From Celeribacter ethanolicus (GTDB lineage: Bacteria; Pseudomonadota; Alphaproteobacteria; Rhodobacterales; Rhodobacteraceae): a DNA stretch of 64,000 nucleotides. Of this stretch, positions 11,197-16,351 are shown piece after piece (within the stretch, counting starts at the first letter, position 1; each line of letters opens with the position of its first letter). The notes under the pieces are model-generated. The model saw only the letters and a program-made list of their open reading frames with translations. It was not told the origin of the DNA and searched no databases. Location of the stretch: assembly GCF_001550095.1 (NCBI RefSeq), contig NZ_LRUC01000010.1, positions 124,001 to 188,000 of the forward strand, read 5' to 3'. A program made the position numbers and the translations under genes.

Positions 11197-11595
11197 TCAC
11201 CTGTTCTTCATCAGCTTGCCGAGCGGGGTCCGCTTTGCAATCTGCGCTTTGCCGAAGGCGCACATCGCCTCCGTGTCTCGTTTCTCAATGCCCTGAGCGG
11301 CAAAGAAGCTTGTCGATTCATCCGCCAGAACCGCCAGAAAGGCCGGGTCCTGAAGGGTTTGAATGTCGTCCGCGCCATAGCCCTTGGCGACGATGGTTTC
11401 CATCATCGTCTTGGCCTGCGCGTTCACCCGCGCGGGGCGCGCGGCCAGTTTCGGACAAATGGTCGTCAGTTCCGTGACAATCATATTGTCCACCAGAGGG
11501 CCGCGAATGTCCGGGTCCTCCGTGATTGCCATCTGCGCCAGAGCCGGAACGGCCCAAAGCGCCAGAACAGCGGGATATGCCAGCCCCCGGATCAT
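11197..11595 (-). CDS. Exported DUF5333-like protein, paralogue 3
   Basis: 132 residues from the chosen ATG, which overlaps the previous stop by four bases (ATGA); a longer frame adds 22 residues that read through the neighbour's end and lack a signal peptide. A signal peptide ending ALAQ is clear. The mature part has one central cysteine (TICPKLAA) and one near the end ([17 protein letters not shown]). The central GYGADDI and C-terminal C-x-x-G pattern match the two neighbouring paralogues. I associate this with the DUF5333 family of Rhodobacterales from memory; the function is unknown. Confidence 0.75.
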
Positions 11596-12002
11596 TTCGT
11601 GCTCCTCAGGAAAGAGCCGATCAGCGTGCCCTTGGCGATCTCCGATTCGCCGAAGCCGCAAAGCCCCTGCGGCGTTTTCGGATCGAAACCGGCGTGGCGT
11701 ACATAGTCTTCGCCGAGGCGACGAATACGGGCCTCTTCGCTGTCGCTTTCGACATAGGCGCGAATCTCGTCATCCGAGTAGCCCATGGAAGAGGCCTTGT
11801 TCTTCAGCCCCCAGAGGAAGGACAGGCCCTTGATTTTCTTGACTTCGAGCGTCGGACATTCATCCGCCACCTCGACGGCCAGACCGGCCCAGAGCATGTT
11901 CTGGTCGATCTCTTTGACCTCCCGCAAAGGCGGCAGTTCCGCCGCCGCAGCAGCGCCCACTGTAAGGGCAAGAGCAAGGGTGAGATGTTTGAGCTGTGTC
12001 AT
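11592..12002 (-). CDS. Exported DUF5333-like protein, paralogue 2
   Basis: 136 residues with a signal peptide ending near AAAAAE. The central motif DECPTLEVKK and later GYSDDEI, then LCGFGESEIAKGTLIG at the C-terminus, line up with the downstream paralogue ([31 protein letters not shown]). Two conserved cysteines suggest one disulfide in the periplasm. It starts three bases after the DUF3291 gene and overlaps the next gene by four. Family assignment to DUF5333 is from memory; no function is known to me. Confidence 0.75.
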   Translation of the reverse strand: MTQLKHLTLALALTVGAAAAAELPPLREVKEIDQNMLWAGLAVEVADECPTLEVKKIKGLSFLWGLKNKASSMGYSDDEIRAYVESDSEEARIRRLGEDYVRHAGFDPKTPQGLCGFGESEIAKGTLIGSFLRSTK

Positions 12003-12005
12003 GGG

Positions 12006-12506
12006 TTACTCCGCAGCAATCGGGCGACAGCTTTTCTCGCGGAAAAGCGTGGCCTCTTTGATGTACGACCAGCCAAAGGCCTGATCGCTGTCCCCATGTT
12101 TTTGCTTGTAGGCGAGGCGTTCCATCGCCTCTGCCAGCGTGGGCTTGTGCCCCTCTCCCACAAACCACATCACGAAATGCTGGTCGGCCATCAGCTCGAA
12201 CCATTCCGCGCGGCGGTCGTAAAATTGTTTGTGCACCGTGTTGAAGACGAAATGCTCAAGGCTTTGCACGTCTTCCCAAACGGTAAGATTGGCGACGAAT
12301 TGCGGATCGTCGCCGATGTTGTTCTCGGTGTTCCCGGTGCCCGGCTCACCCGAGCCTTCCATCATCCAGACGAACCCCGGCATGCGTTTGCCCATGCCGT
12401 TGATCCGGTCCAGCGCGCCCATGAACTCGGCCACGCGCGGATCGTCCGTCGGCGCGACAAGGCGTCCGATGTTCAGCTCCGCGAGATATGTGCCGACAGG
12501 TTGCAT
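12006..12506 (-). CDS. DUF3291 domain protein between nuoF and nuoG
   Basis: 166 residues, cytoplasmic, with the DUF3291 pattern of the dimeric alpha/beta-barrel fold: YLAELNIGRLVAPTDDPRV, then FMGALDRINGMG, FVANLTVWEDVQSLEHFVF and WFELMADQHFVMWFV. The fold is that of antibiotic-biosynthesis-monooxygenase-like proteins but no cofactor residues can be identified. The ATG shares one base with the stop of the upstream lipoprotein gene; a longer frame adds 25 Arg/Gly-rich residues that are simply the shadow of that gene. Its role beside complex I is unknown. Confidence 0.78.
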   Translation of the reverse strand: MQPVGTYLAELNIGRLVAPTDDPRVAEFMGALDRINGMGKRMPGFVWMMEGSGEPGTGNTENNIGDDPQFVANLTVWEDVQSLEHFVFNTVHKQFYDRRAEWFELMADQHFVMWFVGEGHKPTLAEAMERLAYKQKHGDSDQAFGWSYIKEATLFREKSCRPIAAE

Positions 12507-12919
12507 CAGCGTGCCGGTCCTTCCACCAAAGTTGCGCCCAGAGGCGTCATCTGTTTCATTTCGTCCCGCGCCGCCGCGCAAAACGCTTTGTCATCCGCCG
12601 CACCGTGCTGCGCCACGAAGCCCGAACGGGCATTTTCAAGCCGCTGCGCGTTGAGCGCCGGATCGGAGAACGGCAAGCGTTCGACACGCGACGACAGGAG
12701 ATTGTGCACCTGTGTGCTGATCTCGATCCGGTCACAGCTCTCCGCGATGTCCTTCGACAGCAACAGCATCCCCGCCAGCTCATCCTTGCCCATATCGCGA
12801 AACGCCGCCCGGGCGACCGTCATGCGATCGAGCGACATGCCACGCATAGCCTCATTCGCCTCGTCCACCTGACAGGCGGACAAGAGCGTGATCGGCAATA
12901 TGGCGAGGGCGGGTTTCAT
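12506..12919 (-). CDS. Small lipoprotein, divergent DUF5333-like paralogue 1
   Basis: 137 residues. The N-terminus ends in the lipobox LSAC with cysteine at residue 16. The body has a central cysteine (ESCDRIEIS) and a C-terminal FCAAARDEMKQMTPLG, matching the spacing of the cysteine and the TPLG ending in the two exported paralogues downstream. It therefore looks like a membrane-anchored member of the same set. It begins 9 bases after nuoF ends. Confidence 0.7.
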   Translation of the reverse strand: MKPALAILPITLLSACQVDEANEAMRGMSLDRMTVARAAFRDMGKDELAGMLLLSKDIAESCDRIEISTQVHNLLSSRVERLPFSDPALNAQRLENARSGFVAQHGAADDKAFCAAARDEMKQMTPLGATLVEGPAR

Positions 12920-12928
12920 AAGCGCGCC

Positions 12929-14227
12929 TTACTCCGCCGCAAAGGCTGCGGTGACGCGGCCGGTTTTCTTGATCTTGATGCGCTCTTCGATGTCATCACG
13001 GAAGTGACGGATCAGGCCCTGGATCGGCCAGGCCGCCGCATCGCCAAGCGCACAGATGGTGTGGCCCTCGACCTGTTTCGTCACATCCAAAAGCATGTCG
13101 ATCTCTTCGATCTCCGCATCGCCGGTCACCAGACGGTCCATCACACGCATCATCCAGCCGGTGCCTTCGCGGCACGGCGTACACTGGCCGCAGCTTTCGT
13201 GTTTGAAAAACGCCGACAGGCGCCAAACGGCTTTCACCACATCGACGGAATTGTCCATCACGATCATACAGCCGGTGCCGAAGGAGGACTTGTTTTCGCG
13301 CATCCAGTCGAAGTCGAAAATCGCATCCTCAAGCGCCTCTTTCGGCAGCACCGGACAGGACGCGCCGCCGGGGATGATCGCTTTGAGATTGTCCCAGCCG
13401 CCGCGAATGCCGCCGCCGTGTTTCTCGATGATCTCGCGCACGGACATCGACATTTCTTCCTCGAACACGCAGGGCGTGTTGACGTGGCCGGTGAGCGCCA
13501 TGAGTTTCGTGCCCGCGTTGTTCGGACGTCCGAAAGACGAGAACCAATCCGCGCCACGCCGCAGGATCGTCGGCACGACGGCGATGGATTCGACGTTGTT
13601 CACCGTGGTCGGGCAGCCATAAAGACCCGCGCCCGCCGGGAACGGCGGTTTCATCCGGGGCATGCCTTTTTTGCCTTCGAGAGACTCGATGAGGGCGGTT
13701 TCCTCGCCACAGATATAGGCCCCTGCCCCGTGGTGCAGGTAGACGTCGAAATTGTAGCCGGATTTGCAGGCGTTCTTGCCGATCAGACCAGCGTCGTAAG
13801 CCTCGTCGATCGCGGCCTGAAGCGCCTCTTTCTCGCGGATATATTCGCCGCGAATGTAGATATAGGCCGCCACCGCGCCCATGGCGAACCCGGCAATCAG
13901 CGCGCCTTCGACCAGCGTATGCGGATCGTGGCGCATGATTTCGCGGTCCTTGCAGGTCGCGGGCTCGGATTCGTCGGCGTTGATCACCAGATAGGACGGG
14001 CGACCGTCGCTTTCCTTCGGCATGAAGGACCATTTGAGACCGGTTGGGAAACCCGCACCGCCGCGGCCACGCAGGCCAGAGGCCTTGACCTGATCAATGA
14101 TCCAGTCGCGCCCGTTGGCGAGAATGCCCGCCGTACCGTCCCAATGGCCGCGCGCCATGGCACCTTTGAGGCTACGGTCATTCATCCCGTAGAGGTTGGT
14201 AAAGATCCGATCCTGATCCTTGAGCAT
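12929..14227 (-). CDS. nuoF: NADH-quinone oxidoreductase subunit F
   Basis: NADH- and FMN-binding subunit holding cluster N3; entry point of electrons. 432 residues, as expected. The nucleotide-binding glycine loop is [17 protein letters not shown], the FMN/NADH contacts include [15 protein letters not shown] and [16 protein letters not shown], and the cluster ligands are [13 protein letters not shown] with a fourth cysteine in [13 protein letters not shown]. It is 13 bases downstream of the DUF5337-like gene. Confidence 0.98.
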
Positions 14228-14240
14228 CGCTCTTGTCCCT

Positions 14241-14462
14241 TCAGTCCTGCTGACGCGTGTCGCGCCAGATCTGATAAATCACCACGAAGACCCACACAAA
14301 GCCGGCCAGCGCCATGAGGTCGAGCAGGAACACGTAACGCACAGGCATTCCGAGTTTCCCACCCAGCCACTGGGCCCCGAGCCAGATCGACATCGTCAAA
14401 GCGATCACCAGCGCGACCGTTCGCGCCTTTTTCGCCAGATGCCGGTCCTTGTCGGGAACCAT
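14241..14462 (-). CDS. DUF5337-like two-helix membrane protein
   Basis: 73 residues with a basic N-terminus ([11 protein letters not shown]) and two transmembrane segments, about residues 14-32 and 42-63, ending in a charged tail. The ATG is preceded by GAGGAG eight bases upstream; a GTG three codons earlier is also open. A small protein of this build between nuoE and nuoF is what I recall as DUF5337 in Rhodobacterales. A stabilising accessory of complex I is plausible but unproven. Confidence 0.7.
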
Positions 14463-14474
14463 TGTCTTCACTCC

Positions 14475-15143
14475 TCAGTACACGTCGCCATCCTTGACGC
14501 GTTTCGAGAATTCCGTTTCCTCGCCCTCAGAGAGGGCTTTCGCCTGACCAACCCAGTCGTCCCGGGTCACCCGGCCTTTGAACCCTTGCAGGTTCTCATC
14601 CATCCAGGCCACTTCCGCCGCAGACCATCCGGCGATCTGACCGAAGTGGTAGACCCCCATGGAATGCAGGAGCACCTCAAGTTTCGGTCCCACGCCCTTG
14701 ATCTGTTTCAGATCGTCGGCCCCGCCTTCGAGCGGCGCCTTGAGGAGCGTCGGCTTCGCCGTCTTCTCCTCGGGCTCCTCTGCAACCGGATCGGCCTCAG
14801 GCGTCGCTGCAGCCGCAGCGGAACGCACTTCCCGCGTGTCGGCGGCATGCGGTTCCGGCGCGATTTCCCCGGCCACGGAGATCGGCTCATCGCCGATGGA
14901 GGCCGTCGCCATGAGACCGGCGGTGCTCACATCGGCCTCGGGATGCCCCTCGACCGGCGTGATCTCTTCTTCGTGCCAGCCGATCCACAACAGGATCGCC
15001 ACAAGAAAGGTCACCAGAACACCGACGATGATCGAGTCGACGGTCGCATAACCTGCGATCCACAACAGGGCTAGGAAGGCCAAGACGCCAGAGATGGCTG
15101 AAATCAGCCAGATCCTGGGTGTTTTGGTCGTCGCCTCGCTCAT
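14475..15143 (-). CDS. Membrane protein with NuoE-tail (helix-hairpin-helix-like) domain
   Basis: 222 residues in three parts. Residues 10-55 form two transmembrane helices. Residues 60-135 are a low-complexity Ala/Glu/Pro linker. Residues about 138-222 form a compact domain beginning [18 protein letters not shown], containing AGWSAAEVAWMDE and ending EGEETEFSKRVKD. This domain is closely similar to the last 80 residues of the NuoE encoded next to it. The KGVGPKLE segment is a helix-hairpin-helix-type loop usually seen in nucleic-acid-binding or protein-binding folds. The pairing with NuoE suggests a complex I accessory that holds the NADH module; this is inference. Confidence 0.75.
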   Translation of the reverse strand: MSEATTKTPRIWLISAISGVLAFLALLWIAGYATVDSIIVGVLVTFLVAILLWIGWHEEEITPVEGHPEADVSTAGLMATASIGDEPISVAGEIAPEPHAADTREVRSAAAAATPEADPVAEEPEEKTAKPTLLKAPLEGGADDLKQIKGVGPKLEVLLHSMGVYHFGQIAGWSAAEVAWMDENLQGFKGRVTRDDWVGQAKALSEGEETEFSKRVKDGDVY

Positions 15144-15193
15144 TCCTGTCTTCCTTTACCGTGTCCTGTCAGTGGCCCTTTGGCCGTCTCGTC

Positions 15194-16351
15194 TCAGTAT
15201 TTCGCCCGTTTGGAGAATTCGGTTTCTCCGCCCTCTGCGAGAATTTTAGCCTGTTCGATCCAGCCGTCACGTTCGATCCGGCCCTTGAATTTCAGTCGGC
15301 TGTCGACCCATGCGATCTCCGCCGGAGTCCAGTTCGCGACCTGATCGTAATGGTAGAAACCCAACTCGTTCAGCGTTTCTTCGAGCTTCGGCCCGACGCC
15401 CTTGAGTTTCTTCAGGTCATCCGCCCCGCCCTCGCGCGCTGCGGTGAGCAGTTCCGGCTGTTTTTCGTCCACAGCATCCGGCGTTCCGGTCGAAACCGCC
15501 TCCGCCTCCTGTTTCGTCGCACCGTTCTCGCTGACCGCCACACCGGCTGCCGGTTTCGGCTCGGCTTCCTTGGCGTCGGCTGCCTGCTGCACGGCGGATT
15601 TGGCCGCAGCCGGGGCTTTCGGCACGGAACCGTGACCGGCGCCCTTGGAAATCCACGGCGTCAGAAGCGGCACTTCGGTGCCGTCGATGCGCTTGATCGT
15701 GTCGCCGATGTCGACTGCGCGCTGCACGGAACCGTTATGCGCGGCGCCCGTACCCTTGTACTCGGCCAGAACCACCGGACCACCGGCGGGTTCGGACGAA
15801 TAACGCCCGGCTTGCGAGCCCGGCAGCGGGACATTGCCCGCTTCCATCTGATCGAGCAGCTTCTCGAAATTCTCGGCGGTCAGGTCTTCGTAATAGTCCT
15901 TGCCGATCTGGGCCATCGGCGCGTTGGCGCAGGCGCCAAGGCATTCGACCTCTTCCCAGCTGAACTTGCCGTCGGCAGACAGCGTGTGCGGCTTCGCGGC
16001 GATGCGGCGTTTGCAGACCTCGATGATGTCGCCCGAGCCGCAGATCATGCAGGTCGTGGTGCCGCAGACCTGAATATGGGCCACGGAACCAACCGGTTGC
16101 AGTTGGAACATGAAGTAGAAGGTCGCCACTTCGAGCGCACGGATATAGGGCATGCCCAGCATATCCGCGACATATTCGATCGCGGGTTTGGTGAGCCAGC
16201 CCTGCTGTTCCTGCGCCCGCCACAACAGCGGAATGATCGCGGATTGCGCGCGGCCTTCCGGGTATTTGGCGATCTGCCCCTCGGCCCAGGCGAGGTTCGC
16301 CGGGGTGTATTCGAAAGAGGCGGGTTGTTCAGAATAAAGACGGCGCAGCAT
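15194..16351 (-). CDS. nuoE: NADH-quinone oxidoreductase subunit E with long C-terminal extension
   Basis: Thioredoxin-like subunit carrying cluster N1a, partner of NuoF. Cysteines 96, 101, 137 and 141 (CGTTTC and ECLGAC) are the [2Fe-2S] ligands. The standard subunit is about 165-240 residues, whereas this one has 385. After residue about 245 comes an Ala/Glu-rich linker, then from residue 306 a domain [18 protein letters not shown] ... EFSKRAKY shared with the downstream membrane protein. The start shares a base with the nuoD stop. Function of the core is certain; that of the tail is unknown. Confidence 0.96.

Follow-up and report, generated by a model that had tools for sequence, protein, structure and literature searches.

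A tail domain common to NuoE and a protein-O-like membrane protein encoded beside it in Celeribacter ethanolicus

Introduction

Protein-O was discovered in 2025 in the RC-LH1 photocomplex of Dinoroseobacter shibae and published, in the paper describing PDB entry 8yy9, as a subunit of the photosynthetic RC-LH1 complex (PMC12079452). Its gene sits between nuoE and nuoF (section 2.3 of that paper), the disulfide joining the two ends of its hairpin lies on the cytoplasmic side, and one relative bears the name 'endonuclease', as for a FEN-like nuclease (Fig. 3E there). A tail common to protein-O and NuoE of D. shibae was already noted in the same work, without explanation. The protein is present in PDB entries 8yy9, 8yz2, 9jpb and 9km0, and under the molecule name 'Protein LRC' in 9lts and 9ltv; the term 'protein-O' was not found in a search of PMC12654162. 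Searches of open-licence PMC papers for NuoE extensions, supercomplexes of complex I, extended L21 proteins and the accession names of the domain yielded nothing on the tail domain, and no paper found in them treats the module as a wider docking system.

In this study, we analysed a stretch of 64,000 nucleotides from Celeribacter ethanolicus (contig NZ_LRUC01000010.1, positions 124,001 to 188,000), called the window below. An initial annotation had proposed that the C-terminal domain of NuoE is duplicated on a membrane-anchored protein encoded next to it, and that the two copies could bind each other or the same partner, thereby docking the N-module of complex I.

Results

Genes between nuoE and nuoF

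The locus comprises the following features.

15194..16351, minus strand: NuoE, 385 aa, with a [2Fe-2S] thioredoxin-like core, a Pro/Ala-rich linker and a C-terminal tail domain
15197..15436, minus strand: tail domain of NuoE, residues 306-385 (BLASTP, profile search, AlphaFold2)
14475..15143, minus strand: protein-O-like membrane protein, 222 aa (phmmer and profile homology to 8yy9_O; Foldseek)
14976..15122, minus strand: predicted transmembrane helical hairpin of the membrane protein, residues 8-56 (AlphaFold2, Foldseek rmsd)
14490..14732, minus strand: tail domain of the membrane protein, residues 138-218 (BLASTP, profile search, AlphaFold2)
14241..14471, minus strand: DUF5337 small protein, 76 aa, membrane-like by eye (PF17272, E 2.3e-29)
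12929..14227, minus strand: nuoF, downstream in the tightly packed row (open reading frame, named by eye from sequence)

The reading frames of NuoE and the membrane protein lie where they had been placed initially, 50 nt apart; as a minor correction, the DUF5337 gene stands between the membrane protein and nuoF. No solved relative of the DUF5337 protein was found at E below 0.9. The window NuoE matches PF01257 (Pfam, E 1.1e-53) and scores 579.2 bits with NCBIfam PRK12373 (NF009040, the NuoE long form), above the cut-off of 514. The 239-residue NuoE of PDB entry 8qby, presumably from Paracoccus denitrificans, aligns over residues 1-236 only and is without the tail.

On the same strand, the nuoF-nuoG interval (11197-12919) holds two DUF5333 proteins, a third DUF5333-like one below cut-off and a DUF3291 gene, i.e. 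a run of related small proteins, secreted-looking by eye, within the nuo row. A sulfotransferase-family gene (PF13469; 17595-18491, minus strand) lies between nuoC and nuoD, the nuo genes being named by eye.

The membrane protein is a homolog of protein-O

By gene position and by structure, the membrane protein is the homolog of protein-O, and we class it as a homolog only; this kinship with a photosynthetic RC-LH1 subunit had escaped the initial annotation. A phmmer search of the PDB aligned residues 7-222 with 8yy9_O, deposited as 'Reaction center protein O chain' (E 9.7e-38), and a profile of 63 O proteins, comprising the window protein and its relatives, matched the same chain at E 9.6e-78 and also found 9lts chain A, 'Protein LRC'. 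This profile moreover matched chain a of PDB entry 9wqv over profile positions 7-226 of 240 (E 8.1e-62), a chain whose deposited name is 'NADH:ubiquinone oxidoreductase 41 kd complex i subunit'. When the window model was compared by Foldseek, the D. shibae RC-LH1 chains 9lts_A (rmsd 1.2 Å) and 8yy9_O (1.5 Å) ranked first among 52 matches, with probability 1.00, but with E-values of only 0.24 and 0.35.

Ranked by E-value, Celeribacter baekdonensis supplies the closest named relative of the window O (L180, 53%). One O protein of the genome survey described below (L104, genome G030) equals D. shibae protein-O in length (239) and in the N-terminal residues compared, and either the published protein or a very close one is therefore part of the survey. 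A second conserved motif, around [RK]-K-G-x-W-x-Y, occurs in the linker of 23 of 81 O proteins (L104, L098, L040 and L057 among the carriers), in 6 NuoE and, by eye, in several tail-less O proteins; it is absent from the window O.

The two tails have the same predicted fold

The near-gapless alignment of the two tails reported earlier was reproduced: by BLASTP, the last ~80 residues of NuoE and of the membrane protein share 54 identities over 88 positions with one gap (E 4e-35), at sequence level a likeness far beyond chance. AlphaFold2 models were made from alignments of 63 O and 59 NuoE sequences; of the proteins detected in relatives, 62 of 65 O and 58 of 74 NuoE entered these alignments. 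In the membrane protein, helices are predicted at residues 8-28 and 34-56 (pLDDT blocks of 93-94 for residues 11-50); confidence drops to blocks of 52-64 in the linker and rises to 93-98 in the tail, except for its last residues. NuoE also has a low-confidence linker, followed by a tail of 91-98, again except for the last residues. The helices predicted in the O tail (153-162, 167-171, 175-184, 191-194, 197-205 and 211-217) recur in the same order in the NuoE tail (321-330, 335-339, 343-352, 358-361, 364-372 and 378-383). Both domains are hence predicted to have one and the same fold, and the unrelated folds that had been named as refuting the proposal did not occur. The models also bear out the arrangement put forward for the two copies, in which the NADH module and a membrane anchor each bear one of them on a flexible linker.

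The first half of the tail resembles helix-hairpin-helix domains

A resemblance to helix-hairpin-helix (HHH) domains had been pointed out as well, and common ancestry is supported for the first half of the tail, both by HHH-like structures and by Pfam HHH_5. The first ~40 residues align to archaeal eL32, the RadA N-terminal domain, PolX and the NusA C-terminal repeats, with E-values from 4e-4 to 0.15, and they resemble Pol IV as well; the designed repeat protein 9zem also matches the tail, in short pieces. Eleven of the 12 tails have a match to Pfam HHH_5, the best at E 2.9e-9; the NuoE tail stayed below the Pfam cut-offs of HHH_5 (18.9 of 27 bits) and Cdd1 (21.4 of 25.5 bits) and both whole proteins scored lower.

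These relatives would fit tails that bind nucleic acid; RNA or the nucleoid would then be the tether point of ribosomes (through bL21 and uS2), of complex I and of the O anchor. Two carriers of the domain are indeed ribosomal proteins, and a further one (L280) combines DUF6456 with below-cut-off helix-turn-helix matches. The conserved hairpin K-G-V-G-P-K looks like nucleic-acid-binding HHH motifs, so a nucleic acid partner keeps some probability. On the other hand, the mean net charge is -0.97 for NuoE tails (100) and -0.63 for O tails (81), and such slightly acidic tails are mild evidence by which we judge a protein partner more likely than nucleic acid. No nuclease catalytic family was over the Pfam cut-off in 12 proteins, and none was among the Pfam matches of either window protein; in L272, another carrier, the N-terminal region of RNase Y was matched below cut-off. 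NusA-type HHH repeats bind proteins, too. Taking both sides together, we consider binding of nucleic acid by the tails unlikely.

NuoE and O tails form one pool

Mean identity was 0.628 among NuoE tails, 0.641 among O tails and 0.624 between the two groups (100 NuoE and 81 O tails), and 20 bL21 tails showed 0.623 among themselves, 0.508 to NuoE and 0.496 to O. In this comparison, which covered NuoE, O and bL21, NuoE and O tails are by sequence one interchangeable pool and bL21 tails a separate subtype. A poorly resolved tree of 191 tails needed 39 changes of label (NuoE, O or third protein), as against a mean of 69 and a minimum of 61 for shuffled labels, where cleanly separated paralogs would need only a few; ten third-protein tails are intermixed there with NuoE and O tails. 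The simplest reading of a single pool is that both tails are under the same demand, i.e. that they have the same partner.

NuoE and O tails of one genome are more alike than those of different genomes (0.677 versus 0.636; 72 pairs, permutation p 5e-5). Codon identity of the tails in the survey sample was 0.558 within genomes, 0.480 across genomes and 0.481 for the own codon pool, and the raised within-genome sharing indicates that gene conversion contributes to the likeness of tails in the sample. In the window pair, 24 of 47 codons are the same, at a sample-wide expectation of 0.48, and the longest identical DNA measures 10 nt. Since codons are not unusually shared in this pair, constraint at the protein level, rather than recent copying, appears to keep its tails alike; these values do not support the view that recent duplication or gene conversion alone explains the likeness in the window.

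Among 120 genomes, both tails are present at the locus in 71, the NuoE tail only in 28, the O tail only in 9 and neither in 12 (p 0.020). Such co-occurrence above expectation, the adjacency of the genes and the greater likeness of tails within a genome would all agree with NuoE and O tails binding each other, or self-associating. In this case O would tether the NADH module of complex I to the membrane and, in phototrophs, the binding would join complex I to RC-LH1. Hetero-pairing of HHH domains has a precedent in XPF-ERCC1. However, one tail only is found in 37 of the 120 genomes, which disfavours an obligate NuoE-O pair, the domain occurs also on bL21, uS2 and other proteins, and the tails, belonging to one pool, show no sign of becoming complementary. 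Mutual binding is in our opinion improbable. The part of the original proposal in which the two tails dock the N-module by binding each other is thus weakened by the genomes with a single tail, and its other part, a partner common to both, fits the data better. Ten O hairpins (by eye) and 21 of 120 NuoE are without a tail, which indicates that the tail is dispensable.

O-type hairpins with and without a reaction centre

No match to Photo_RC (PF00124) was obtained at E 0.001 in the window's genome (completeness 100). Across 246 genomes of the window's family, the tail was found in 229 and not found in 17 (profile A1, E 1e-4), and Photo_RC in 92. We surveyed the nuoE-nuoF region in 60 genomes with and 60 without a reaction centre, taken in listing order from 79 NuoE matches in each class, the window nuoF serving as the probe for nuoF in the relatives' loci. 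In the reaction-centre class 80 of 92 genomes were queried; G028 gave no NuoE match, and G130, whose contig ends soon after NuoE, was replaced by G160. In the other class 80 of 154 were queried; G120 gave no NuoE match, and the window's own genome (G000) was counted apart and replaced by G091. Any gene that adjoins nuoE and bears a tail was taken as O, a simple rule set the start codons in relatives, and some surveyed regions end at contig ends. Two hydrophobic segments (script threshold) were present in 80 of 81 tail-bearing O, the window protein included, and one segment in L066.

Between nuoE and nuoF, 48 of 60 reaction-centre genomes and 42 of 60 of the other class have an O-type hairpin (Fisher p 0.29), 10 of these 90 being recognised by eye; another small two-helix-looking frame in L110 was left out of the count. 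Protein-O is thus not only photosynthetic, a dedicated photosynthesis role for the hairpin as a whole is rejected, and the membrane protein probably serves respiration too. The share of genomes with a tail-bearing O is somewhat higher in the reaction-centre class (46/60 versus 34/60, p 0.033), and this counts against our reading. The NuoE tail was present in 45 of 60 genomes with and 54 of 60 without a reaction centre (p 0.053), and the tail-less O-like hairpins, recognised by eye, belong to ten genomes, eight without and two with a reaction centre. What is new here is that the window's genome is without a detected reaction-centre gene and that O-type hairpins are common in relatives without one.

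Two further candidate relationships were rejected. A Cys pair at the disulfide places does not mark phototrophs (24 of 46 tail-bearing O with and 25 of 34 without a reaction centre, p 0.065). As to O being a stand-in for PufX, the latter was over cut-off in 33 of 60 reaction-centre genomes and occurs with and without O, with no replacement pattern by eye.

Other carriers of the domain

The search for other proteins with this domain, suggested at the outset, led to bL21, uS2 and further carriers. Searches with profile A5 (E 1e-6) covered three taxonomic levels. At class level, the domain was detected in 20 of 192 genomes. Of the 61 genomes drawn at order level, each labelled as belonging to the window's family, 59 have it. 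At phylum level the count is 54 of 199; 50 of these belong to the window's class, and the 4 from elsewhere gave weaker matches (30-43 bits). Overall, the module occurs chiefly in Alphaproteobacteria.

In a census covering 36 family genomes, 29 non-nuo loci were examined, and 20 of them encode bL21; one match (G018:C119) was left out, and the bL21 of the window's own genome, taken earlier, bears a weaker copy of the tail (E 1.5e-17, profile A5). Other census carriers are single-pass membrane proteins (L260 and L272, by eye), a DUF2189 membrane protein (L255), the DUF6456 protein (L280) and three proteins with an N-terminus without assignment (L263, L273 and L283, the first without any Pfam match). 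Among 20 hand-picked regions, uS2 with the tail was confirmed in L302 and seen by eye in L305 and L307. Two further census proteins (L268, 376-2991, plus strand; L275, 1-3297, plus strand) contain four copies of the tail domain each. A single-pass membrane protein (by eye) with the tail is encoded outside the nuo row in L024 (1486-2076, minus strand), L191, L197 and L217; in L024 it adjoins an OmpA-like gene (by eye).

In another alphaproteobacterial family (f133, at a guess rhizobia), the order nuoE(tail)-nuoF-X(tail), where the N-terminus of X is without assignment, was found in all nine genomes with a match (L292-L300, two genera), and f133 genome G502 had none; these loci were picked because the phylum search showed two matches about 2 kb apart, and unlisted f133 genomes may exist. 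In the window's family, 10 of 120 loci have a second tail protein between O and nuoF. The nuo rows of two families hence hold NuoE together with another tail protein. A phasin identity is not established for the third carriers: in those scanned (L292, L263, L151 and L084), the N-terminal parts are without a Pfam family, and the phasin model PhaH (NF045508) was matched below its cut-off, by stretches ending in the tail. With the two window proteins, this model gave 86.6 and 71 bits, below its cut-off of 250, its best stretches covering linker and tail.

Occurrence on unrelated proteins, in up to four copies, would be expected of a stable, mobile C-terminal cap that spreads by duplication and gene conversion and has a general role, e.g. 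in stability or solubility. The signs of gene conversion and the family genomes and NuoE proteins without a tail point the same way. Such a cap is nevertheless difficult to reconcile with tail residues, charged ones among them, that are near-invariant over many genera, and with second tail-bearing genes in the nuo rows of two families; we find it decidedly unlikely.

Discussion

The explanation that we prefer, at somewhat less than an even chance, is that both tails dock to the same cytoplasmic partner, a protein. It builds on what was demonstrated, namely homology, predicted fold, predicted anchor, genome distribution and sequence equivalence of the tails. Points against it are the share of gene conversion in the likeness of the tails, the dispensability of the tail, the higher frequency of tail-bearing O in the reaction-centre class and a conserved hairpin resembling nucleic-acid-binding HHH motifs. 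The tail would be a folded alphaproteobacterial docking module of ~80 residues, consisting of an HHH_5-like first half and a conserved F-K-G-R..R-D-x-W..Q-A second half, and O would anchor a copy of it by the predicted two-helix membrane hairpin. The NuoE and O copies may then recruit one common partner on the cytoplasmic side, which is the side of the NADH module; complex I, through this module, and the O anchor would thereby stay close to one and the same machinery at the membrane. Phototrophs would in addition have accommodated the O hairpin between reaction centre and LH1, as observed in D. shibae; the hairpin may predate its place in RC-LH1 or be independent of it.

A much broader proposal would see the O hairpin as a general linker between energy-converting complexes, with shared tails gathering complex I, RC-LH1 and ribosomes (through bL21 and uS2) at one membrane site. 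In non-phototrophs, the hairpin would have its seat within or next to complex I or a different quinone enzyme; in phototrophs, it would sit between reaction centre and LH1. If so, light-driven quinol production, NADH chemistry and membrane protein synthesis would be physically coupled, but we regard this as very improbable.

Protein-O is encoded in the complex I row, it occurs in relatives where no reaction centre was detected, and its tail belongs to one sequence pool with the NuoE tail. Together, these facts raise a testable question: is the membrane hairpin a respiratory component borrowed by RC-LH1, and are complex I and other complexes linked through the tails? That two ribosomal proteins carry the module as well suggests a docking system of wider extent in Alphaproteobacteria.

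Comparison with known systems

The window protein and D. shibae protein-O have in common the two-helix hairpin, the long linker, the C-terminal domain ending in GDVY and the position between nuoE and nuoF. They differ in that the window protein has no cysteine at all, neither before helix 1 nor after helix 2, and thus cannot form a disulfide like Cys10-Cys59 of protein-O; residence in RC-LH1, the other feature of protein-O, has no counterpart in a genome without a PF00124 match. As for the NuoE long form (NF009040, PRK12373), the tail belongs to the model, and no differences from it were seen in the window NuoE. The bL21 and uS2 proteins with a C-terminal HHH extension (NCBIfam PRK12278 and PRK12311) carry a homologous tail, which in the 20 bL21 examined stands apart from the NuoE and O type. 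Compared with HHH domains (HHH_5, eL32, RadA N-terminal domain, PolX, NusA C-terminal domain), the tail is distinguished by its C-terminal half, FKGR..RDxW..QA, which in these searches was matched by tail carriers only.
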